The notes beneath the pieces are model-generated. The model made no database searches. It saw only the letters and a list, made by a program, of their open reading frames with translations, and was not told the DNA's origin. Position numbers and translations under genes: made by a program. This document shows positions 1 through 21,841 of a stretch of DNA of 21,841 nt, one piece after another (position 1 is the first letter of the stretch; every line of letters starts with the position of its first letter). This DNA comes from a virus, in the IMG/VR virus record IMGVR_UViG_3300042562_003531, positions 1-21,841 of that record; one strand, 5' to 3'.

Positions 1-834
1 ATGTCGAACGGGCCATGGACAGATGCAGAGAACGACCTGATCGTTGCGGATTACTTCGCGATGTTGGCTGCGGATGTCGCGGGCAAGCCTTACAACAAGG
101 CCGAGCACAATCGCGAACTTCAGGCCCGCATCGACCGCAACCGCAGTTCCATCGAGTTCAAGCACCAGAACATCAGTGCAGCATTGCAGGGGCTCGGTGA
201 AACGTGGATCCCCGGCTACAAGCCTGCCGTCAATTTGCAGATGACCCTTGTCGATGCTGTGGCGCGCTGGCTCGCGCTCAATCCGGCCTGGTTGGGCCGG
301 ACGCCAGGCGCGCGCAAAGCGACGGGTATGGCCGATATGGCCCGGCTTTGGATCGGACCGCCACCAACGCTTTCGAACCAGCCCCCACCTGCCGAGCTGG
401 ATCAGATGCTGCACATCGCCCGAAAGTTCGATGTGGCCGAGCGGGATGCCCGCAACCGCGCCCTTGGCCGAGCTGGAGAGGAACGGGCGCTGGCACATGA
501 AAAGTCTGCTCTGGCCGATGCCGGGCGAAGCGATCTGGCCCGCAAGGTGCGCTGGGTGTCGGAAGAGGATGGCGACGGCGCGGGCTACGACATCGAGAGC
601 TTTGCTCCGGACGGGCGGCTCCGCCTGATCGAGGTGAAGACGACGAATGGCTGGGAACGAACGCCCTTCCACATTTCCCGCAACGAACTGGCCGTTGCCG
701 AGGAACGGCGCGCCGATTGGTGCCTGATGCGGCTGTGGAATTTCTCACGCGAACCGAAGGCATTTGAGCTGCGCCCGCCGCTGAACGCACATGTATCACT
801 GACCGCGACCAGCTTTCAGGCTAGCTTTCACTGA
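1..834 (+). CDS. DUF3883 domain protein, PD-(D/E)XK nuclease-like
   Basis: The product is 277 aa if translation starts at the ATG that forms the first three bases of the window. An upstream start cannot be excluded because the preceding sequence is not visible. The C-terminal third has the DUF3883 signature: GAGYDIES with D197, then RLIEVKTT with E211 and K213, which gives a D-x13-E-x-K restriction-endonuclease-like core. The N-terminal part (about 1-100) contains a conserved-looking RSSIEFKHQNISA stretch that I associate with this family. DUF3883 proteins are often found in restriction and defence loci, and the domain is thought to be a nuclease or DNA-binding module; the substrate is unknown. 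The gene is convergent with the recombinase operon, with only four bases between the two stop codons. It may be the last host gene beside the element or a cargo gene; the sequence does not decide. Confidence 0.8.
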   Translation: MSNGPWTDAENDLIVADYFAMLAADVAGKPYNKAEHNRELQARIDRNRSSIEFKHQNISAALQGLGETWIPGYKPAVNLQMTLVDAVARWLALNPAWLGRTPGARKATGMADMARLWIGPPPTLSNQPPPAELDQMLHIARKFDVAERDARNRALGRAGEERALAHEKSALADAGRSDLARKVRWVSEEDGDGAGYDIESFAPDGRLRLIEVKTTNGWERTPFHISRNELAVAEERRADWCLMRLWNFSREPKAFELRPPLNAHVSLTATSFQASFH

Positions 835-838
835 GCGG

Positions 839-1216
839 TCAGTCGAACACTCGCCCGGGCTGATCGGCCCATGGCAACTCTGCCACCCCGCACAGGTCCT
901 TGAGCGTCAGCACCGTGGGTTCACGCTGCAGGACCAGCCGCTCCAACACCGATGGCGACAGCCATGCCAGCCGAATTATGCGGCTGACATAGCGGTCGGA
1001 GAAACATTCTTTGGCGGCCAGATCCGCCAGCGTGGTGACTTCGCCACGTTCGATCAGTTGTCGCCAACGCCAAGCAAGACCGATTGCGCGCAGGACGTGT
1101 GGGTCCTGCCCTCGCTCCATTTCGACCTCCACCTCTTTGGGCGGCAGGATGCGCGGGCGGCCGCCGCGCTTGCGGATGGTCAGCGGGATGTGGATGCGCA
1201 GCGTGTCGTTCATCAT
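839..1216 (-). CDS. Small HTH-like protein, last gene of recombinase operon
   Basis: This 125-aa basic protein has no catalytic motif that I recognise. Residues about 60-95 (LADLAAKECFSDRYVSRIIRLAWL) read like a helix-turn-helix: a LADLAA helix, a short turn, then a recognition-type helix with RYVSRIIRL. The N-terminal part is rich in Arg, Lys and Pro (KRGGRPRILPP), which fits DNA contact. The start is ATG at 1214-1216; a second ATG follows directly. It overlaps the recombinase stop in an ATGA junction, so translation is probably coupled to the recombinase. I associate small proteins of this type with DUF2924-linked recombinases in alphaproteobacterial prophages. A role as recombination directionality or accessory factor is possible but is inference only. 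Confidence 0.75.
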   Translation of the reverse strand: MMNDTLRIHIPLTIRKRGGRPRILPPKEVEVEMERGQDPHVLRAIGLAWRWRQLIERGEVTTLADLAAKECFSDRYVSRIIRLAWLSPSVLERLVLQREPTVLTLKDLCGVAELPWADQPGRVFD

Positions 1217-2538
1217 GCCACCTGCTTTCTCGGTGGTGCGACCAGGGCAGCGATTGCCCCAAGACCCTCGTGGCGCAGATCGACGGCCAGCCCCGCCTCA
1301 CCCACCGTCACACGGGCGACCAGCAGCTGCACAACGCGCGCTTGTTCGGCCGGGATCAGCGCCGTCCACATCTTGTCGAACTGGGCCAATGCCGCTGTCA
1401 CGTCCGCCTCGCCAAGGTCGGGCCGATCCTTGCGCAGCACCTTAGCGACGCGATGTGCGGCTTCCGGCGTGCGCAGCAGGCGGCGAATCTCGCCGATCAC
1501 CGCATCCTCGACCATGCCGCCCGGCAGGCGCTGAGGGCCGCGCAACACGGCATCAGGCCGCTTCTGGATGACGTCCATCGAGACGTAGTAGCGGTAGAGC
1601 CGGGTGCCCTTCTTGGTGTGATGCGGGGTCATGGCCACGCCGCTCTCGGTGAAAACCAGCCCTCGCAGCAGGGCCGGTGCGGGCGCCCGCGCCACGGCGA
1701 TCCGAGCGACACGGTTGTTGGCCAGCACATCGTGGACCTGCGCCCATAGTGCTTCATCGATGATCGCTTCATGCTCACCGGGGAAGGCTTCCGTCTTGTG
1801 CACGGCCAGCCCGCGATAGACCCGGTTGTGCAGCAGCTTGTAGAGGTAGCCCTTGTCGAAGGACTTGCCCTTCTTGGTCTGGATCCCGCGGGTGTGCAGC
1901 TCATCGATCACCTGCGTCGTAGAGCTGGACCGCGCGAACAAACGGAAGATTTTCTGCACCGCCTCGGCCTCGGCCGGGTTCACGACCAGCTTGCGGTCCT
2001 TTACATCATAGCCCAATGGCACCGGCCCACCCATCCAGATGCCCTTTCGGCGCGAGGCGGCCACTTTGTCGCGGATCCGCTCACCGATCACCTCGCGTTC
2101 GAATTGCGCGAAGGATAGCAGGATGTTCAGCGTCAGCCGTCCCATGGATGTGGTGGTGTTGAAGGATTGAGTGACCGAGACGAACGTGACGCCGTTGCGG
2201 TCGAATATCTCGACCAGCTTGGAGAAATCCATCAGCGCGCGCGACAGCCTGTCGATCTTGTAGACCACGATGATGTCGATCAGCCCGTCCTCGATTTCGG
2301 CGATCAATTGCTTCAGCGCCGGGCGATCCAGATTGCCGCCGGAAAAGCCGCCGTCATCATAACGGTCGCGCAAGCAGACCCAGCCCTCGGCGCGCTGGCT
2401 GGCGATATAGGCCTCGCAGGACTCACGTTGCGCATCGAGGCTGTTGAATTCCATGTCGAGCCCTTCCTCGCTCGACTTGCGGGTGTAAATGGCACAGCGA
2501 AGGCGACGGACTGGCTCGTTTTTGGGTGGCTTGGTCAT
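1213..2538 (-). CDS. Large serine recombinase (site-specific integrase)
   Basis: The product is a 441-aa serine recombinase that would integrate and excise the element. The N-terminal resolvase domain (about 12-160) shows AIYTRKSSEEG with the likely nucleophile S22 beside R20, the FSGGNLDRPAL segment, and the catalytic IDRLSR motif (D96, R97, R100). The long E-helix region SFAQFEREVIGERIRDK follows. A Recombinase domain covers about 165-275. The segment after it (LLRGLVFTESGVAMTPHHTKKG) sits where a zinc ribbon is usual but lacks the paired cysteines. I chose the ATG at 2536-2538 rather than an in-frame start 39 codons upstream, because it overlaps the DUF2924 stop as ATGA and places the resolvase domain at the usual distance from the N-terminus. 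It is the third gene of a four-gene operon. Confidence 0.93.
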   Translation of the reverse strand: MTKPPKNEPVRRLRCAIYTRKSSEEGLDMEFNSLDAQRESCEAYIASQRAEGWVCLRDRYDDGGFSGGNLDRPALKQLIAEIEDGLIDIIVVYKIDRLSRALMDFSKLVEIFDRNGVTFVSVTQSFNTTTSMGRLTLNILLSFAQFEREVIGERIRDKVAASRRKGIWMGGPVPLGYDVKDRKLVVNPAEAEAVQKIFRLFARSSSTTQVIDELHTRGIQTKKGKSFDKGYLYKLLHNRVYRGLAVHKTEAFPGEHEAIIDEALWAQVHDVLANNRVARIAVARAPAPALLRGLVFTESGVAMTPHHTKKGTRLYRYYVSMDVIQKRPDAVLRGPQRLPGGMVEDAVIGEIRRLLRTPEAAHRVAKVLRKDRPDLGEADVTAALAQFDKMWTALIPAEQARVVQLLVARVTVGEAGLAVDLRHEGLGAIAALVAPPRKQVA

Positions 2539-3041
2539 CGGCTGAACCCCGCACTTGCGCCGTGAGCGAGGCCGAAAAATTTCCATCCGTTCCGGTTGGT
2601 GCCTGTGATCGCCCGCGCCGCAGCAGAAAGCGACTTGAACCGCCGCCCCTGCCATTCAAACCCATCGGCGCGAACAGTGACGGAGTGTTCGACTCCCTCC
2701 CAATCCCGGACCAGCCGGGTGCCCGGCATCGGTCGGCGCGGATCTGCCACCATCGGCCCCGGCGCACCGTTGGCGACCTCGTCAGCCAGCGCATCCAGCG
2801 TGCGCCGCGCCTCACGGCCCAGCCCACCTAGAGCCAGTTCCTGCAAGCGATAGCCAAGCCGCAGCTCCAAGTTCCCCCGGCTGGCATTCGGGGCTGGCGC
2901 ATCGAAGATAGCCGCCCACTTCGCCTGAAGCTCCGGCACCGTCATTGCCCTGAGTCCGGCTAGTGCGGCCACGACGTCGATGAGCTCCGCCTGGTCGCCC
3001 AGTCTCGGCTTCTCCGCTGATTTCCTTGTGTTTTTCGTCAT
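2535..3041 (-). CDS. DUF2924 domain protein
   Basis: This 168-aa protein matches the DUF2924 family as I know it. The N-terminal helical part contains LRAMTVPELQAKWAAIFDAPAP. A middle stretch NLELRLGYRLQELALGGL follows. The C-terminal part (GTRLVRDWEGVEHSVTVRADGFEWQGRRFKSLSAAARAITG, then NGWKFFGL) resembles a small beta fold found in phage and recombinase-linked proteins. DUF2924 genes commonly sit directly before serine recombinases in alphaproteobacterial mobile elements; the biochemical role is not established. The gene overlaps both its upstream 73-aa neighbour and the recombinase in ATGA junctions, which suggests that the proteins are made in fixed proportion. An accessory DNA-binding role in integration is plausible but unproven. 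Confidence 0.85.
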   Translation of the reverse strand: MTKNTRKSAEKPRLGDQAELIDVVAALAGLRAMTVPELQAKWAAIFDAPAPNASRGNLELRLGYRLQELALGGLGREARRTLDALADEVANGAPGPMVADPRRPMPGTRLVRDWEGVEHSVTVRADGFEWQGRRFKSLSAAARAITGTNRNGWKFFGLAHGASAGFSR

Positions 3042-3290: not shown

Positions 3291-3462
3291 TTGGTGGCCT
3301 GATGCAAGGAACGTTTTCAAGTCAAAACAATGGGTTGTCGCAGTACCAAGTAGCTCAGCGCGCACATGCGTTATGGATTCGTACCTATTCACTTTAGGAC
3401 TTTGCTTGAGTAGCCTCTGAGAATGAGGCACCCTCCAAAAAACGAACAAGAGCGTGAGCGTA

Positions 3463-4665
3463 ATGAAAAGTCTCTTCCCTTGGTTCTTTGTAACCGATGC
3501 TGACTACGCCAAGATTTGGCAGAATGGCATTCTGACGGTAGATGCGAACGTTCTGCTCGATCTGTACAGATACCACACAAGTACACGGGACGCACTTCTC
3601 GCAGCGTTAGAGTCCTTCAAAGGTCGAATCTGGATTTCGCATCAGACCGCAAGTGAATTCTTGAGGAATCGAAAATCTGTAATTGTGGATATGACGCTCG
3701 ACTTTGAAAGATCGTCGAAGCCAATAGATGATCTAAAGAAGGCGATTCTGGATGCAAATGACCGGCTGAAATCCCACCGTGTCATTCCAAAATCAACAAT
3801 CGAAGAATTTGGGTCTGAGTTAGACGCAGCAATCACAAAGATTTCAAAAGCAATCTCAACAGAAAAATCAAACGCACCCGACTACCTCACCACAGATCAA
3901 ATCCTTGATCGCCTTATCAAATTACTTGAGGGAAATATTAGTGGTAAGCCAGGCGATCTTGATGATGCACTGAAAGAAGCCACTAGGCGGAAATCAGGGA
4001 AAATTCCGCCAGGTTATATGGACAAAGACAAGGATGGTGACAGGCACGCTGGCGATTACTTTATGTGGCGCGAGATTCTTAGCTTCGCCAAAGCTAAGAA
4101 GATGCCGGTTATTTTCGTAACGTCAGAACGCAAAGAAGACTGGTGGGAGATAAAAAGCGGTCGGACGCTCGGCCCGCGCCACGAACTCCTTCAGGAAGCT
4201 CAGGAAACATCAGGCCAAGGGTTTGCTATATACCACACGGATCGATTTCTAGAGTTCTATGAGAAAAGCAAAGGACAAAGTGCCAGCACCGAAGCATTGG
4301 CAGAGATCCGTGAAATCGCTGAAAGTCGTGAGGCTTCGAGGCTTCCGGCAGTATCTGTCGTTCAAGAAGTTTTGGCCGCTGACGAGCAGAGCAACAAAGG
4401 AATTCTTCACGTACGCCTAGCGAGACCAGTACGGAACTTTACTGGTAGCGGGCATTTCGAGCCAAGACTTCGACATGCGCCACGGCTTGAAGTCAAAGTG
4501 ATTTCTACTCCGGAAGGAGTTCCTGACATTAACATACGCGCGAACACAGGTACTAACTACGACTTTAATGCGCACATTCACGCCTTTGGAAACGGGAGCA
4601 CACTGCCGCCAGGTGAATACCTTATTGAATACTCCGCAATATGCTCAGACATCGCAGTGTCGTAG
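3463..4665 (+). CDS. PIN-like domain protein (DUF4935/PIN_8), putative RNase
   Basis: This 400-aa protein (403 aa if GTG at 3454 is used) has a PIN-type nuclease core of the DUF4935 (PIN_8) type. Acidic residues fall where the family places metal ligands: D27 in TVDANVLLD, E65 in TASEF, D198 in AGDYFMW, and D226 in TSERKEDWW. Residues about 80-190 form a helical, charged insert. A C-terminal extension of about 100 residues (from about 300) looks beta-rich and is not a domain that I recognise. PIN_8 proteins are predicted RNases found in defence settings. The gene is clearly AT-richer than the genes on both sides, with AAA, GAT and ATT codons frequent, which suggests separate acquisition. It stands alone, convergent with the immunity operon. 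Shine-Dalgarno matches are weak for both starts; I prefer ATG at 3463. Confidence 0.82.
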   Translation: MKSLFPWFFVTDADYAKIWQNGILTVDANVLLDLYRYHTSTRDALLAALESFKGRIWISHQTASEFLRNRKSVIVDMTLDFERSSKPIDDLKKAILDANDRLKSHRVIPKSTIEEFGSELDAAITKISKAISTEKSNAPDYLTTDQILDRLIKLLEGNISGKPGDLDDALKEATRRKSGKIPPGYMDKDKDGDRHAGDYFMWREILSFAKAKKMPVIFVTSERKEDWWEIKSGRTLGPRHELLQEAQETSGQGFAIYHTDRFLEFYEKSKGQSASTEALAEIREIAESREASRLPAVSVVQEVLAADEQSNKGILHVRLARPVRNFTGSGHFEPRLRHAPRLEVKVISTPEGVPDINIRANTGTNYDFNAHIHAFGNGSTLPPGEYLIEYSAICSDIAVS

Positions 4666-4770
4666 CAGTTGATGGCCATCGGCGAATATGCATTCATTCT
4701 TTCCCAATCGGGTGCGAACCAATATTGAGAGATTTGCGCTCCCTCTCATTCCTTCTTGCCTCACCTGAAT

Positions 4771-5496
4771 TCAATGCCGCGTAGCTGGTTGCACCAGCCC
4801 ATCCGTCCGAAGCCGCAGCGAAGCTTTCCACAGCGGCGTCTTTGTAAACAGGTTGCGTTCATTGCTCATAAGCCCCTTGGCCCGGTCCATGTGCAGCAGC
4901 CCCGTCCAGCAGAGCGGCCGTAGCACCTGGATGTAAAGGCTGCTCAGAATGTTGTCGAAATTTCCCTTCGGGCCGGGCTCGCCGAACAGCACGCGGCGAA
5001 GATCGGCCCCAGAGGCACCGTTCTCGTTTTCGACGTTCATCACGTTCAGGAAAACGTCCCAGTTCCGCAAGGTGGGGTCGTCGTCAAAGCGTGAGAACCG
5101 TGCATGGTTGACCTCGAAAAGATAGAACGGCGTGACGATTCCGAAGGTCTGCCCCGGGTGCCCAACAAGCGTTTGGCCCGCCTTGCTCAGCTTGATCTCG
5201 CCCTTACAATGCCGCCCGATTTTCATTGCGATCATCACATCGTGCAGATCCATCAGCGGACCGAAATCTATTTCGTTCAGTACCTTGTTGACGGCGAAGA
5301 GGTCGGCTTCGGTGTGGCCGGGCCCTTCGAATTCACGCGCGGCCCAGTGCACGAACACCCGCTTGAACGCCTTGGAGGGCGTCAACCCGATCGAGCCGTG
5401 CTCACCGAGGTAAGCGAAGGTCTTTTCCAGCCCACCCACGATAGGCGAAAGAGCGAGCGCCGGATTGGCATCATCGATATCGAGGAATTCAATCAA
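4771..5496 (-). CDS. Hypothetical protein, third gene of repressor-nuclease operon
   Basis: I do not recognise a domain in this 241-aa protein. It is soluble, with no signal peptide or membrane segment. It has a central segment LMDLHDVMIAMKIGRHCKG followed by FGIVTPFYLFEVNHARFSRF, and a C-terminal part ILSSLYIQVLRPLCWTGLL that could be a winged-helix-like fold. The start is TTG at 5494-5496, chosen because AGGAGG lies six bases upstream on the minus strand; no in-frame ATG is as well placed. The gene follows the AbiJ-like nuclease gene after 37 bases in the same direction and is convergent with the PIN gene. Position suggests that it works with the nuclease (partner, sensor or antidote), but that is inference from synteny only. 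Confidence 0.72.
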   Translation of the reverse strand: MIEFLDIDDANPALALSPIVGGLEKTFAYLGEHGSIGLTPSKAFKRVFVHWAAREFEGPGHTEADLFAVNKVLNEIDFGPLMDLHDVMIAMKIGRHCKGEIKLSKAGQTLVGHPGQTFGIVTPFYLFEVNHARFSRFDDDPTLRNWDVFLNVMNVENENGASGADLRRVLFGEPGPKGNFDNILSSLYIQVLRPLCWTGLLHMDRAKGLMSNERNLFTKTPLWKASLRLRTDGLVQPATRH

Positions 5497-5533
5497 ATCA
5501 GCCCTCCTGGTCGCGATTCTGGTGATCTAGCGC

Positions 5534-6901
5534 CTACTTCACGCGATGAGCGGCGAACAGTCGTTCGAAGAACGCGGCTATCATCTTGTCCACCGAGTCG
5601 TGACCCGTCCCATTCGTTTGCAAAAAGTCCGCACCCCCAAAACGGAAGACTTCGTAGCCTCGGATCCGCAACGCGCGATCGGCCTCGACCATCCGCGCGT
5701 ACCTTTGTGGGTCGGCTCGGTCACCGTCCGCGTAGTGATGTTTGCCGTCTATTTCGATGACGACACGTTGTCGGCCCGGCAAGAGCATGAGAAAGTCCAT
5801 TCGTTGTCGGAAGAGAGCTTGCTTGTCCGGAAGTCTACTGACGATTTCGGGGTCGTAGTGGAGGTAGACCTGCGGAACGAGCGCTGGCAGGCGTTCACCA
5901 AGTTTCTCTGAAAAGAGCCGAAAGTACGCAGCGAAGAACTGTTTTTCTGGGCCATCGTCGAGAGAAGCGATGAGCCGTTTTCCCAGTGCGGTGCGTGCCT
6001 CCACCAAATCGGAAATGCTTTCGCGCTGCATCCACCAGCGGACAAGATCAAGCCATGTGAGTCCATTTCCGATCGGCAGGTCAAATATGAGGCAGCTTGC
6101 CGCGTGGTCGAGGACGACGATCTCGTTATCAATGGCGTCGGAGAAACCAAGCCTCGGTTTGGGTCCAATCGAAGCAAAAATCAGGTTCTTCGGTCGGCCT
6201 TCGACGCCGCGCCGAACTGGCCGAACCGAGTATGTTGCGCGCCCGGAAACTTCTCCGGTTCGGGCCACCTCATATCCATCAATTCTCAGGATTTCAGAAA
6301 GGGCGATTGCCAGCGCGTCTTGATCGTCCGCATCACGTATTCTGGGGTCGAGGGTCGTCTCAACGAGAAGTGCAAAGCGCCGTGTTGGGCAAACCGTCGC
6401 GCCTACAAACTCGAAGACATCTCGCGCGTTCCAGGCCGGTTGGGGGCCGGTCGCATTGATCCGGAGCTCGTCGCCCTTGCTTGGGCCAAAGAAGTCCGCA
6501 GCACTGCTCAAGTCGAAAAGCGCGTCGATTATTTCAGGTCGAATTCCTTTTCCGTGCATCCGAGTGCCGAGGAGATCAGCTACCCGATCGCGTGTAATTG
6601 TACTGATATCCGGCTGCCCCTCGTCTTGAAGCCTGAAGACCGCATCTTGGAGCGGAATGTCTTTCGTCTGCTCTGCAAGCTCTAGCGCTAGTTGAAGTGC
6701 TTTCCGCTGTGGCAGGCCGGCAAGCGTGTTGCGGGCGACCGTCTTTTTGCTGTCCCCTTCGACCAAGGGAACTAATCGGCTGGTGAAGAACGCATCGATG
6801 TCCACCCCCCGCATGGTGTCCCTGAAGCGGCAACCTGCCGCTTCCAATATGTCCTCTAGTAGGTTCTTGCTCTGCATGTTTGCGCCAGCCGTGGAAACCA
6901 T
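5534..6901 (-). CDS. AbiJ-NTD3-like protein with VSR/DUF559-type nuclease domain
   Basis: This 455-aa protein appears to be a phage-defence protein. Residues 236-249 (GRPKNLIFASIGPK) through LTWLDLVRWW (281-290) match my recollection of the AbiJ-NTD3 region. The C-terminal domain (about 365-425) is a very-short-patch-repair/DUF559-like PD-(D/E)XK nuclease: RMDF (D369), VVIEIDGKHHY (E383, D385, K387), then EADRALRIRGYEVFRFGG. AbiJ-type proteins give abortive infection in other bacteria; the target here is unknown. The start ATG at 6899-6901 is preceded on the minus strand by GGGAG at suitable distance and lies only four bases after the repressor stop, so it is almost certainly co-transcribed with the repressor. 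M9 is a weaker alternative start. Composition is GC-rich, but less so than that of the replication genes. Confidence 0.82.
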   Translation of the reverse strand: MVSTAGANMQSKNLLEDILEAAGCRFRDTMRGVDIDAFFTSRLVPLVEGDSKKTVARNTLAGLPQRKALQLALELAEQTKDIPLQDAVFRLQDEGQPDISTITRDRVADLLGTRMHGKGIRPEIIDALFDLSSAADFFGPSKGDELRINATGPQPAWNARDVFEFVGATVCPTRRFALLVETTLDPRIRDADDQDALAIALSEILRIDGYEVARTGEVSGRATYSVRPVRRGVEGRPKNLIFASIGPKPRLGFSDAIDNEIVVLDHAASCLIFDLPIGNGLTWLDLVRWWMQRESISDLVEARTALGKRLIASLDDGPEKQFFAAYFRLFSEKLGERLPALVPQVYLHYDPEIVSRLPDKQALFRQRMDFLMLLPGRQRVVIEIDGKHHYADGDRADPQRYARMVEADRALRIRGYEVFRFGGADFLQTNGTGHDSVDKMIAAFFERLFAAHRVK

Positions 6902-6905
6902 GAGC

Positions 6906-7583
6906 TCAAATCTCCCGCGCGAACCAGCGGATGCGACCGATGATGTTGATCTCCTCGGCGCTGCGCTCGTAGGGGGTGTAGAAGCCGTTGTCGGAGATCA
7001 CCCGTACGGCAGGCGGATCACTGTTGGGGATGTGCTCCAGCCGCTTGGCCACCAATCCCATGCCGTCGTCCAGCACGAAGATACCCGGTGGGTTCGGCGC
7101 GCGGCGCGTCATGTCGACCAGCACCGTGTCGCCATCAAGCAGTGTCGGCGCCATGCTGTCACCTTCGACATGCATGATGCGCAGTTGCGACGGGGTGGCC
7201 TTGAGGCTGCCCTTTATCCAGGATCGGCGGAAGTGGTAGGCGCGGCCGGGCGTGTCCTGGTCTTCGGTCACGATGGCGCCGCCCCCCATCGACGGGCGCG
7301 GGCTGGCATGGGCTATTGCCACGAACGTCTCGTCGGGGTTTTCAATGAAAGGCGGCTCGCCCTCGACCTCTCCGATGCCGTGGATCAGCCAGTCCCGCTC
7401 CACTTTCAGCACGCGCGCGACATCGGCCAGCCGGTCGATTCCGGGGCGCACGGACCTGCCGCGCAGGATGTCATAAACAAAGGATCGGTTCACCCCCGCC
7501 ATCTCGGCGACATGGGCGGGGCTCAGGCCGAGTTGCTGGGCGCGAGCACGCAGCCGGTCGGAGAGCGTGTGATGTTCAGTCAT
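6906..7583 (-). CDS. XRE/S24-family phage repressor (CI-like)
   Basis: The product is a 225-aa LexA/CI-type transcription regulator. The N-terminal XRE helix-turn-helix (about 7-62) includes LGLSPAHVAEMAGVNRSFVY followed by DILRGRSVRP. The C-terminal S24 peptidase-like domain (about 125-220) holds the Ser-Lys pair: S143 in VEGDSMAP and K180 in LVAKRLE. Such repressors hold a prophage silent and self-cleave when RecA filaments form. I chose the ATG at 7581-7583, preceded by GGGGA on the minus strand, over an in-frame start 37 codons upstream that would cross the promoter region. It is divergent from the 225-aa gene at 7693, as expected for an immunity region. It heads an operon with the AbiJ-like nuclease and the 241-aa protein. 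Confidence 0.9.
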   Translation of the reverse strand: MTEHHTLSDRLRARAQQLGLSPAHVAEMAGVNRSFVYDILRGRSVRPGIDRLADVARVLKVERDWLIHGIGEVEGEPPFIENPDETFVAIAHASPRPSMGGGAIVTEDQDTPGRAYHFRRSWIKGSLKATPSQLRIMHVEGDSMAPTLLDGDTVLVDMTRRAPNPPGIFVLDDGMGLVAKRLEHIPNSDPPAVRVISDNGFYTPYERSAEEINIIGRIRWFAREI

Positions 7584-7614
7584 TTTGTCCCCAAGGGGCT
7601 GTGGATCAAATAGG

Positions 7615-7643
7615 ATAAAACAGGATTGCTTGGAGCTCGTCAA
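7615..7643 (-). promoter_or_regulatory. Putative promoter of repressor operon
   Basis: On the minus strand, TTGACG (plus-strand 7638-7643) and TTTTAT (plus-strand 7615-7620) lie exactly 17 bases apart. They match the sigma-70 consensus at five of six and four of six positions. The -10 box ends 31 bases before the repressor ATG, which leaves room for a short leader with its GGGGA site. This is the best promoter candidate in the 109-base divergent region. I could not find an equally good one for the rightward gene; TTGGAG at 7630-7635 has only a poor -10 partner. Confidence 0.45.
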
Positions 7644-7645
7644 GC
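7628..7645. promoter_or_regulatory. Putative repressor operator (GCTTG-N8-CAAGC)
   Basis: GCTTG at 7628-7632 and CAAGC at 7641-7645 form a perfect 5-bp inverted repeat with an 8-base centre, 18 bp overall. That is the size expected for an XRE-repressor dimer site. It lies between the divergent repressor and early genes and covers the putative -35 box of the repressor promoter. Binding there could give autoregulation. Two AGGAT direct repeats (7612-7616 and 7622-7626) lie beside it. That it binds this repressor is inference. Confidence 0.4.
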
Positions 7646-7692
7646 CATTAGAACAGAAGGTAAACAACCAGTGCGGGATTCGAGGGGTCATC

Positions 7693-8370
7693 ATGGAGAT
7701 CGAGAAGGCATATTTTACCCTCCCGGAGATCCTCGACCGCTGGTCGATTTCTGAGGCTGACCTGGTCTACCTAGCCGAAAACGACAAGCTTCGGCTGTCG
7801 GTGCGGGTATTTGGTGTTCCGTTGGAGTTCGGGGACTACGAGGAAGCCGAGGGTGGCGACCACTTCCGCGTGCCCTTCGAGCGGATCCACTACAATGGTC
7901 TGCTGGAGCTTCATGCGCGCGACGTCTTCCAGCTTTTTCGCACCGCTGAGCTGACCATCGCCGATTTTCGAACGCCGCGTGCAGGCTATGCGACGATCTG
8001 GGGTGACAGGGACGGCGTACCGCTGACCATTGGTGACTTGCTGCTAAGGCGCGAAGAACGCGACCGTTTTGAGGCGGAAACGCAGTTTTCTGGCGCAACA
8101 GTTGCGCCTCCACACTTCAGCGCTTCGGCGGACTATCACCAGGTCCGCTGCGGCGCGCGCCAGTTCCGGCTTGGTCCGATCCAGGCACAGGTCGTGCGAG
8201 CTTTGCACGCCGCGGCTAGTGGCGGACACGCTTGGCAGAGCGGCAAGAGCATCCTCTCGGCCGCTGGCTCGAAGAGCCTCAAGATGTCCGATGTGTTCAA
8301 GTCGCAGCCGCATTGGCGCGAGTTGATCGAATCGAATGGCCGGGGTTCCTACCGCCTCGCTTGCGGTTGA
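7693..8370 (+). CDS. Hypothetical early phage protein, possible DNA-binding
   Basis: This 225-aa soluble protein is encoded divergently from the repressor, so it is the first gene of the rightward early transcript. I do not recognise a named family. The N-terminus (AYFTLPEILDRWSISEADLVYLAEN) reads like an HTH-type segment of the kind used by excisionases and phage adaptor proteins. The C-terminal part (about 160-225) has RQFRLGPIQAQVVRALHAAA and then SGKSILSAAGSKSLKMSDVF, which looks like a winged-helix domain. The ATG at 7693 is preceded by GAGGGG at good spacing; in-frame starts further upstream would run into the operator region. By position it could be an early regulator or antirepressor, but no motif proves this. 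Confidence 0.75.
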   Translation: MEIEKAYFTLPEILDRWSISEADLVYLAENDKLRLSVRVFGVPLEFGDYEEAEGGDHFRVPFERIHYNGLLELHARDVFQLFRTAELTIADFRTPRAGYATIWGDRDGVPLTIGDLLLRREERDRFEAETQFSGATVAPPHFSASADYHQVRCGARQFRLGPIQAQVVRALHAAASGGHAWQSGKSILSAAGSKSLKMSDVFKSQPHWRELIESNGRGSYRLACG

Positions 8371-8535
8371 TCCCACCGCCGCCCCCCCGGCGTTGCAACG
8401 TCGGCCGCGCCTGCTGTGGGATGGTAGAGAGGATCAGAGTGGGATCACCGTCCACCACCATCCTCGCTTTCCCAAGGTTTCTGCAGTCCAACTGATCCCT
8501 CTCCGCATCCCACTTCGATCCTGACGACATCCCAC
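8370..8535. repeat. Five phased ATCCCAC/GTGGGAT boxes, candidate early control region
   Basis: The 7-mer ATCCCAC or its complement occurs five times: 8370-8376, 8416-8422 (complement), 8439-8445 (complement), 8507-8513 and 8529-8535. Steps between copies are 46, 23, 68 and 22 bases, close to multiples of about 22.7, so the sites would lie on the same face of the helix. A one-mismatch copy, ATCCCTC, is at 8495-8501, and a 10-bp palindrome, CGTTGCAACG, is at 8391-8400. This 214-base gap separates the 225-aa gene from the early operon and holds no gene that I can support. It could bind the repressor, the HTH protein encoded next, or a replication initiator. Confidence 0.5.
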
Positions 8536-8584
8536 CGTAGGATTCTGCATCTTCCTCCCAACGTAAGCCTGCCGGGAGACGACG

Positions 8585-8794
8585 ATGCAACTGAAACACC
8601 TCAATCAGAAAGAGCTGGCGCGGCGGTGGAACATCTCCCACCGCACGCTCGAACGCTGGCGGTGGGCCGCCGAAGGCCCACAGTTCATGAAGCTGGGCGG
8701 CCGGGTGGTCTACCGGATGGAAGACATCATCGCCTTTGAGCAAGACCAACTGCGCCAGAGCACCGGCGCAGAAATTCGGGCGGGGGCGGCATGA
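8585..8794 (+). CDS. Excisionase/AlpA-like helix-turn-helix protein
   Basis: This 69-aa protein is a single small winged-HTH of the MerR/excisionase (HTH_17) type. It shows LNQKELARRWNISHRTLERWR as the two-helix DNA reader, then the wing GPQFMKLGGRVVYRMEDIIAFE. Proteins of this size and shape act as excisionases or transcription activators in phages. The start has GGGAG seven bases upstream. The stop overlaps the next gene in an ATGA junction. The array of ATCCCAC boxes directly upstream is a natural candidate target, so autoregulation is possible; that is inference. No protein other than this one in the early region has so clear an HTH. Confidence 0.88.
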   Translation: MQLKHLNQKELARRWNISHRTLERWRWAAEGPQFMKLGGRVVYRMEDIIAFEQDQLRQSTGAEIRAGAA

Positions 8795-21154: not shown

Positions 21155-21841
21155 ATGGCACGCAAGAAGACGTACTCGGAGCAGATCGCAGATCACATCG
21201 CCGCGGTGGTGGATGATCGGGGCATTGAGCATGTCCTGCACTTCACGTTGCTGGAAAACCTATCAGGCATCGTGAAGCATGGACTTCACAGCCGGTCGGT
21301 TCTTCAGCACGCTGACTACGATGTTTTCGCCAGCGATGCCGACCGCCTAGATGGACAGGACGGCGCGATTTCAGTATCCATATCGTGCTACTATCCAAAA
21401 ATGTTCGAGGCAAAGCGCTATCGATCCGGTGGTGCGTCTTGGGTGATCCTAAGCTTCGATCCGAGCATCTTGTGGAACTATCACTGCCTTTTCTATCGGT
21501 ATGGTGCCGCAACAAGCGCGACTAAATATGAGCATGGCAAGAGGTACGGCGGCTTCGCGCTAGAACGAATATTCGCTGACTGTACGGTAAATTTGGATGA
21601 ACGTGGAACCGGGTTCCGAGAGGCGCACGGTCTCCCACCCAATTGGCCAACCTTTCCTGAGACCGAAGTGCAGGTAATGAATTCTATCCATCCAGATTAT
21701 CTTTTGGGTGCATGGGTTGAGACACGAGAAGACCAAGATCGGGTGCAGAAGGTTTTGGCTGATTGTGGACGCGAAAATTGCGACACCGTAGTGCACCCGT
21801 TCGAACCGAGAATTTGCCGCAAGCCATATTTTTGGGGCTGA
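21155..21841 (+). CDS. DarT-like DNA ADP-ribosyltransferase (DUF4433)
   Basis: This 228-aa protein resembles DarT, which uses NAD+ to ADP-ribosylate thymidine or guanine bases in single-stranded DNA. HVLHFTLLENLSGIVKHGL (about 26-44) fits the NAD-binding start of the family. DADRLDGQDGAISVSI (61-75) carries the conserved Arg/Asp and strand. PTFPETEVQVM (165-175) with E171 matches the PTxPxxEV catalytic glutamate motif. DarT acts as a toxin paired with the macrodomain antitoxin DarG, and DarTG systems block phage replication. No DarG is present within the window; the gene ends at the last base, so a partner may follow directly. The gene is AT-richer than the early genes, which suggests a cargo gene. 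AGG seven bases before the ATG is a modest ribosome site. Confidence 0.78.
   Translation: MARKKTYSEQIADHIAAVVDDRGIEHVLHFTLLENLSGIVKHGLHSRSVLQHADYDVFASDADRLDGQDGAISVSISCYYPKMFEAKRYRSGGASWVILSFDPSILWNYHCLFYRYGAATSATKYEHGKRYGGFALERIFADCTVNLDERGTGFREAHGLPPNWPTFPETEVQVMNSIHPDYLLGAWVETREDQDRVQKVLADCGRENCDTVVHPFEPRICRKPYFWG

Follow-up and report, generated by a model that had tools for sequence, protein, structure and literature searches.

The gene directly behind the S24 repressor of this prophage, which encodes a 455-aa protein, is likely to be anti-phage cargo that is read from the repressor promoter, made in the lysogen, and acts by sensing infection and then attacking with a nuclease. A lysogen-expressed defence role for this gene is well supported by the anatomy of the locus. 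Because the occupant behind the dormancy gene is a probable DNA-cutting enzyme, protection of the host by this virus is probably limited to the dormant state. The window, i.e., the whole stretch of DNA that was analysed, is a virus record of 21,841 bases, which is judged by its relatives to be an alphaproteobacterial prophage; its nearest genome loci lie in Roseivivax, Paracoccus, Rhodovulum, Jannaschia, and Maliponia. The features of the locus are as follows.

1213..2655, minus strand: large serine recombinase (integrase), bordering the slot at its far end (Resolvase 3e-37, Recombinase 2e-16)
2535..3041, minus strand: DUF2924 protein, likewise at the slot's far border (Pfam 3e-44)
3454..4665, plus strand: 403-aa PIN_8-domain protein (Pfam PF18476 4e-58; phrog_9788 7e-88)
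5496-4771, minus strand: 241-aa protein (P0003 family), TTG start, 37-nt gap after the 455-aa gene
6901-5534, minus strand: 455-aa protein, proposed anti-phage effector, 4-nt gap after the repressor
5537..5821, minus strand: nuclease domain of the 455-aa protein, residues 361-455 (alignment of 24 homologues and profile-profile comparison to DUF559)
6128..6607, minus strand: AbiJ_NTD3 domain of the 455-aa protein, residues 99-258 (Pfam PF18860)
7583-6906, minus strand: S24 repressor (ORF call; HTH and Peptidase_S24)
6912..6916, minus strand: GGGAG, Shine-Dalgarno-like sequence in the repressor's last codons, for the next start codon
7615..7643, minus strand: putative repressor (lysogeny) promoter, TTGACG at 7643-7638, 17-nt spacer, TTTTAT at 7620-7615

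An exchangeable slot behind the repressor

The open reading frames, strands, and gaps agree with the order noted at first, namely the S24 repressor, the 455-aa gene after four bases, and the 241-aa gene after 37 bases, all on one strand. This layout is not due to chance, since purifying selection acts on each of the three genes (dN/dS about 0.03-0.2) and the repressor and nuclease genes are adjacent in every close relative found. Counting the window, 16 distinct prophages retain this pair of genes.

The shared repressor, mostly 83-95% identical and present in many viral contigs, defines a census of 74 distinct Rhodobacterales-type prophages (73 plus the window). Among the 73, the nuclease occurs alone in 14, together with the 241-aa gene in one, and not at all in 58 (30 with the 241-aa gene alone and 28 with neither), which makes the window the second prophage to carry both. 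When the window is compared with sister prophages that have other cargo, the DNA similarity ends at the repressor stop codon. Between this stop codon and the DUF2924 and serine recombinase genes the slot contents vary, and the borders are constant; the DUF2924 gene is a conserved partner of the recombinase in the sister prophages.

PADLOC matched 26 of 30 slot cargo proteins, taken from the larger slot ORFs and not as a random sample, versus none of ten window backbone proteins. The matches include Lamassu (L046), PD-Lambda-4 (L048), PifA (L050), IetAS (L079), Olokun (L102), PDC-M16 (L107), SIR2-pAgo (L115), OLD/GajA-like or OLD/Gabija-like proteins (L044 and L095), GmrSD HEC-06 (L049), PDC-M01 (L010), and RmrA (L051), and a DitA gene is among the further occupants named by PADLOC. 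Most slot cargos lack an AbiJ_NTD3-DUF559-like nuclease, and several occupants lie on the opposite strand. This virus family, dormant in marine and soil alphaproteobacteria, usually carries an anti-virus defence gene in its slot.

Several further genes of the window and its relatives deserve mention. The PIN_8 gene (403 aa, phrog_9788) is convergent with the operon and lies inside the slot before the integration module; it was not found in the sister prophages examined, and its product is a candidate for extra cargo or a second defence gene. A candidate defence protein, PDC-S36 (NOV_C), is encoded near the recombinase module in the window (1-834, plus strand) and in L050, L052, L069, and L078, with two copies in opposite orientation in L050. 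Ahead of other cargo, 2-5 nt past the repressor stop, L056, L065, L075, L084, L092, L096, and L113 share a recurrent short gene (about 76-81 aa; M[AS]HVIIRG.NGRRHEVDF...). The slots of L071, L099, L069, and L041 hold cargo genes of 400-600 aa without a PADLOC match, which are candidate new defence systems. At the other end of the window, a DarT-family ssDNA ADP-ribosyltransferase is encoded at 21155-21838 (plus strand, Pfam E 2e-10), where the record ends.

Domains and homologues of the 455-aa protein

The 455-aa protein had been predicted to join an AbiJ-NTD3-like region to a VSR/DUF559-type nuclease, and both assignments are supported. AbiJ_NTD3 (PF18860) matches with an E value of 8e-29, well above the cut-off (100.6 bits against 32.5), and exceeds the cut-off in seven further homologues as well. 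In an alignment of 24 homologues, R367, D369, E383-I-D-G-K-H-H-Y390, D408-R409, G415-Y, and R420 of the C-terminal domain are invariant. They include a core of the form D, E-x-D-G-x-x-H, D-R, R (D369, E383, D385, G386, H388, D408, R409, and R420), which at the level of sequence is the pattern of DUF559-type PD-(D/E)XK enzymes. The window protein itself scores under the DUF559 cut-off (E 0.0042; 17.4 bits against 20.6), and two family members clear it (Acinetobacter, 21.6 bits; Pseudomonas quercus, 21.1 bits). A profile-profile comparison (hhalign) of the nuclease with four DUF559 proteins gave a probability of 94.5% and an E value of 7.6e-8, and purifying selection extends across all parts of the gene.

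Many of the named top viral Foldseek matches of the nuclease model are restriction, homing, VSR, or DUF559 nucleases; no Foldseek match of the model reached E <= 0.001, and its nuclease part is of moderate confidence. Searches of solved-structure sequences with the alignments of the nuclease and 241-aa families returned nothing. PADLOC 2.0 gave no match for the AbiJ_NTD3-DUF559 nuclease, and the phage records contained no relative of the nuclease or of the 241-aa protein. In a sample of 289 genomes drawn from the class (alphaproteobacteria), AbiJ_NTD3 was above the cut-off in five. A literature search for the spelling AbiJ_NTD3 found nothing; the domain is written AbiJ-NTD3 in PMC3710099.

A classical AbiJ with a HEPN toxin domain was considered and rejected: the AbiJ front end is shared, but no HEPN family was found in the protein with Pfam, NCBIfam, or PADLOC, and no R-x4-6-H motif (the HEPN RNase motif) is invariant among the conserved columns of the 24-homologue alignment. 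Because it lacks a HEPN domain, the 455-aa protein is not an AbiJ.

Homologues of the nuclease are also encoded on plasmids and chromosomes, where no repressor is adjacent. On plasmid pAoF64/95 the homologue lies beside DUF1837 and a DEAD/DEAH helicase and a Lit-family protein, in Blastomonas beside AbiJ-NTD4 and SIR2, and on plasmid pHG1 beside AVAST type 1. The one exception is a P. aeruginosa plasmid, where defence genes are not adjacent.

Proposed expression from the repressor operon and alternative readings

In phage lambda, RexAB is co-transcribed with the repressor. For the prophages described here, each of the 77 distinct upstream regions has a TTGAC motif 57-62 nt ahead of the repressor's ATG (60 nt in 65 of them), in agreement with a putative promoter at this place. 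In the intergenic region 7584-7692, between the repressor and the divergent gene, period-10 ATCC repeats (AATCCTGTTTTATCCTATTTGATCC) overlap the putative -10 element and are conserved in the sister prophages; they are a possible operator.

We propose that the 455-aa gene is anti-phage cargo, carried in a defence slot that is anchored at the repressor in this Rhodobacterales-type family of temperate phages. The gene would be transcribed from the repressor promoter and translated via the Shine-Dalgarno sequence in the repressor's last codons, and the nuclease would be made in the lysogen because these two proposed elements drive its gene. The N-terminal region with AbiJ_NTD3 may then sense infection and release the C-terminal PD-(D/E)XK nuclease, which would cut invader and/or host DNA with a restriction or abortive outcome. 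On exit from lysogeny the repressor promoter would fall silent and the nuclease would be diluted, limiting self-damage.

The translational part of this proposal is consistent with a GGGAG in the repressor's last 15 nt at 65 of 76 loci (four others have GGGAA) and with ORFs of at least 60 codons whose start codon falls between -3 and +8 relative to the stop at 53 of 76 loci, versus 19% of random anchors; in both counts the loci come from related prophages and are not independent. It is nevertheless conceivable, if unlikely, that the nuclease is defence cargo with a promoter of its own, located for example inside the repressor 3' end, and that the adjacency merely marks where cargo lands. The homologues without an adjacent repressor fit such a reading, as do the opposite-strand slot occupants, which must have promoters of their own. 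It is opposed by the position of the nuclease start codon, which nearly all relatives with the nuclease have at a distance of 2-5 nt from the repressor stop, and by the GGGAG in the repressor tail. A separate promoter or terminator between repressor and nuclease was looked for as well, and none was matched in a crude scan of 4000-8600 that likewise failed to pick up the repressor promoter. Transcription from the repressor promoter appears to be a property of the nuclease, the 241-aa gene, and several other cargos and not of all occupants; it is not a rule for the whole slot because some of these are encoded on the opposite strand.

How the operon would be switched off is a separate matter. The repressor is of the CI/LexA-like type (Pfam: Peptidase_S24, 6e-13, and HTH), and the Ser143 and Lys180 dyad is present in the window repressor, with the Ser motif found in 82 and the Lys motif in all 83 of 83 repressors. 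RecA cleavage of the window repressor on SOS induction is doubtful, however, because its linker has no Ala-Gly or Cys-Gly scissile bond (residues 67-125) and Met99-Gly100 takes the position that aligns with the Ala-Gly of the phage JBD30 repressor. Ala-Gly occurs in 23 of 83 repressors, mostly further along the linker. The original prediction that repressor cleavage lowers the nuclease on induction is not borne out by this Met-Gly; nuclease levels would fall just as much if the repressor promoter were shut off in some other way.

A more far-reaching reading, which we hold only tentatively, is that the repressor stop codon serves as a plug-in point, where unrelated defence cassettes, swapped into the lysogeny operon, borrow the repressor's promoter and ribosome-binding site. 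If so, defence would be confined to the lysogen, and self-protection on induction would come from the wiring and not from a dedicated inhibitor. About 74 close prophages with one repressor and swapped defence genes offer a ready series for studying repressor-operon coupling versus prophage-nuclease autoimmunity.

The 241-aa protein has no Pfam domain match, is conserved (26 sequences aligned), and is preceded by an AGGAGG Shine-Dalgarno sequence 5 nt upstream of its TTG start. Foldseek searches with its model (pLDDT 72.6) gave weak winged-helix look-alikes alone (MarR, Fur, linker histone; E > 0.1), so that a DNA-binding role would be a guess. Its family usually supplies the first gene behind the repressor in sister prophages and is also widespread by itself in phages and plasmids of alphaproteobacteria, in some cases close to defence or toxin-antitoxin genes. 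That it forms a two-gene system with the 455-aa protein, for instance a toxin-antitoxin or nuclease-regulator pair, is very improbable. The shared strand, the 37-nt gap, the Shine-Dalgarno sequence, and the pairing of the two genes also in Roseivivax lentus would suit such a system, but 14 of the 16 nuclease prophages lack the 241-aa gene. Conversely, the 30 prophages that have it without the nuclease carry it directly at the repressor stop codon (20), behind a gene of about 77 aa (seven), or displaced (three); plasmids (223 records matched) and unrelated phages likewise have it in the absence of the nuclease. On the prophage census the predicted two-gene module was rejected. In several loci whose cargo differs (e.g., L046, L069, and L078), remnants resembling the 5' end of the 241-aa gene, recognised by eye, persist downstream of the repressor. 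The 241-aa gene therefore probably occupied the slot first, with the nuclease inserted later between it and the repressor.

Least probable of all is that the nuclease acts as a homing-type endonuclease, cutting slots that are empty and so propagating its insertion at the stop codon of the repressor: the insertion boundary at this codon and the homing and VSR-type nucleases among the structural look-alikes would fit, but AbiJ_NTD3 is known to accompany conflict effectors (PMC3710099), homologues lie among defence genes at unrelated sites, and the slot accepts many unrelated cargos, most of them without such a nuclease. For the preferred reading, namely lysogen-made anti-phage cargo, the original prediction retains its domains, its kept operon layout, and the support of defence genes as slot mates, having lost the two-gene module and the cleavage-driven lowering.

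Relation to known systems

Uncharacterised candidates that emerge from this analysis are the AbiJ_NTD3-DUF559 nuclease, the 241-aa P0003 family, and the slot genes without a PADLOC match. In a study of 173 Rhodobacteraceae prophages, the words defense, moron, and abortive do not occur in the main text (PMC8224337).

The effector resembles two described architectures in part. AbiJ-NTD3 has been predicted to be fused to the REase-fold domain DUF2726 (Anantharaman et al. 2013, PMC3710099), so that AbiJ-NTD3 precedes a restriction-endonuclease-fold domain in both cases; the nuclease described here is, however, DUF559-type by profile comparison, and DUF2726 did not match the 455-aa protein in the domain search. 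Lactococcal AbiJ likewise has an AbiJ-NTD-type domain ahead of a toxic enzyme, but ends in a HEPN RNase.

The placement of the gene also has precedents. Lambda RexAB and 434 Hex, which are reported to be co-expressed with the repressor and to act in exclusion or lysogeny control (PMC11077077, PMC3564112), are similarly placed with the repressor, but the proteins are unrelated and are not nucleases. In S. aureus phage 80alpha, the lysogen expresses Tha from the cI promoter, and induction turns this expression down (Rostol et al. 2024, PMC11087260). As with Tha, the defence gene lies in the repressor operon, and reading in the lysogen is proposed here too; Tha, however, is an RNase of the HEPN type, accompanied by an antisense gene, ith, for its inhibitor, whereas the present protein is PD-(D/E)XK-like and has no recognised inhibitor. 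Vibrionaceae P2-related (K139-like) phages carry variable anti-phage cargo too, in an antiviral hotspot flanked by the repressor and the integrase (Rousset et al. 2022, PMC9122126). The slot described here differs in its serine recombinase and DUF2924 protein, its alphaproteobacterial hosts, and its phage lineage; its cargo set is a different one that includes the AbiJ_NTD3 nuclease and is anchored at the repressor stop, often with predicted translational coupling. Repressor-integrase hotspots and cI-operon defence are thus already known elsewhere, and what appears to be new is the phage family, an effector architecture that PADLOC 2.0 does not match, and the anchoring of cargo at the repressor stop with a predicted ribosome-binding site inside the repressor gene.
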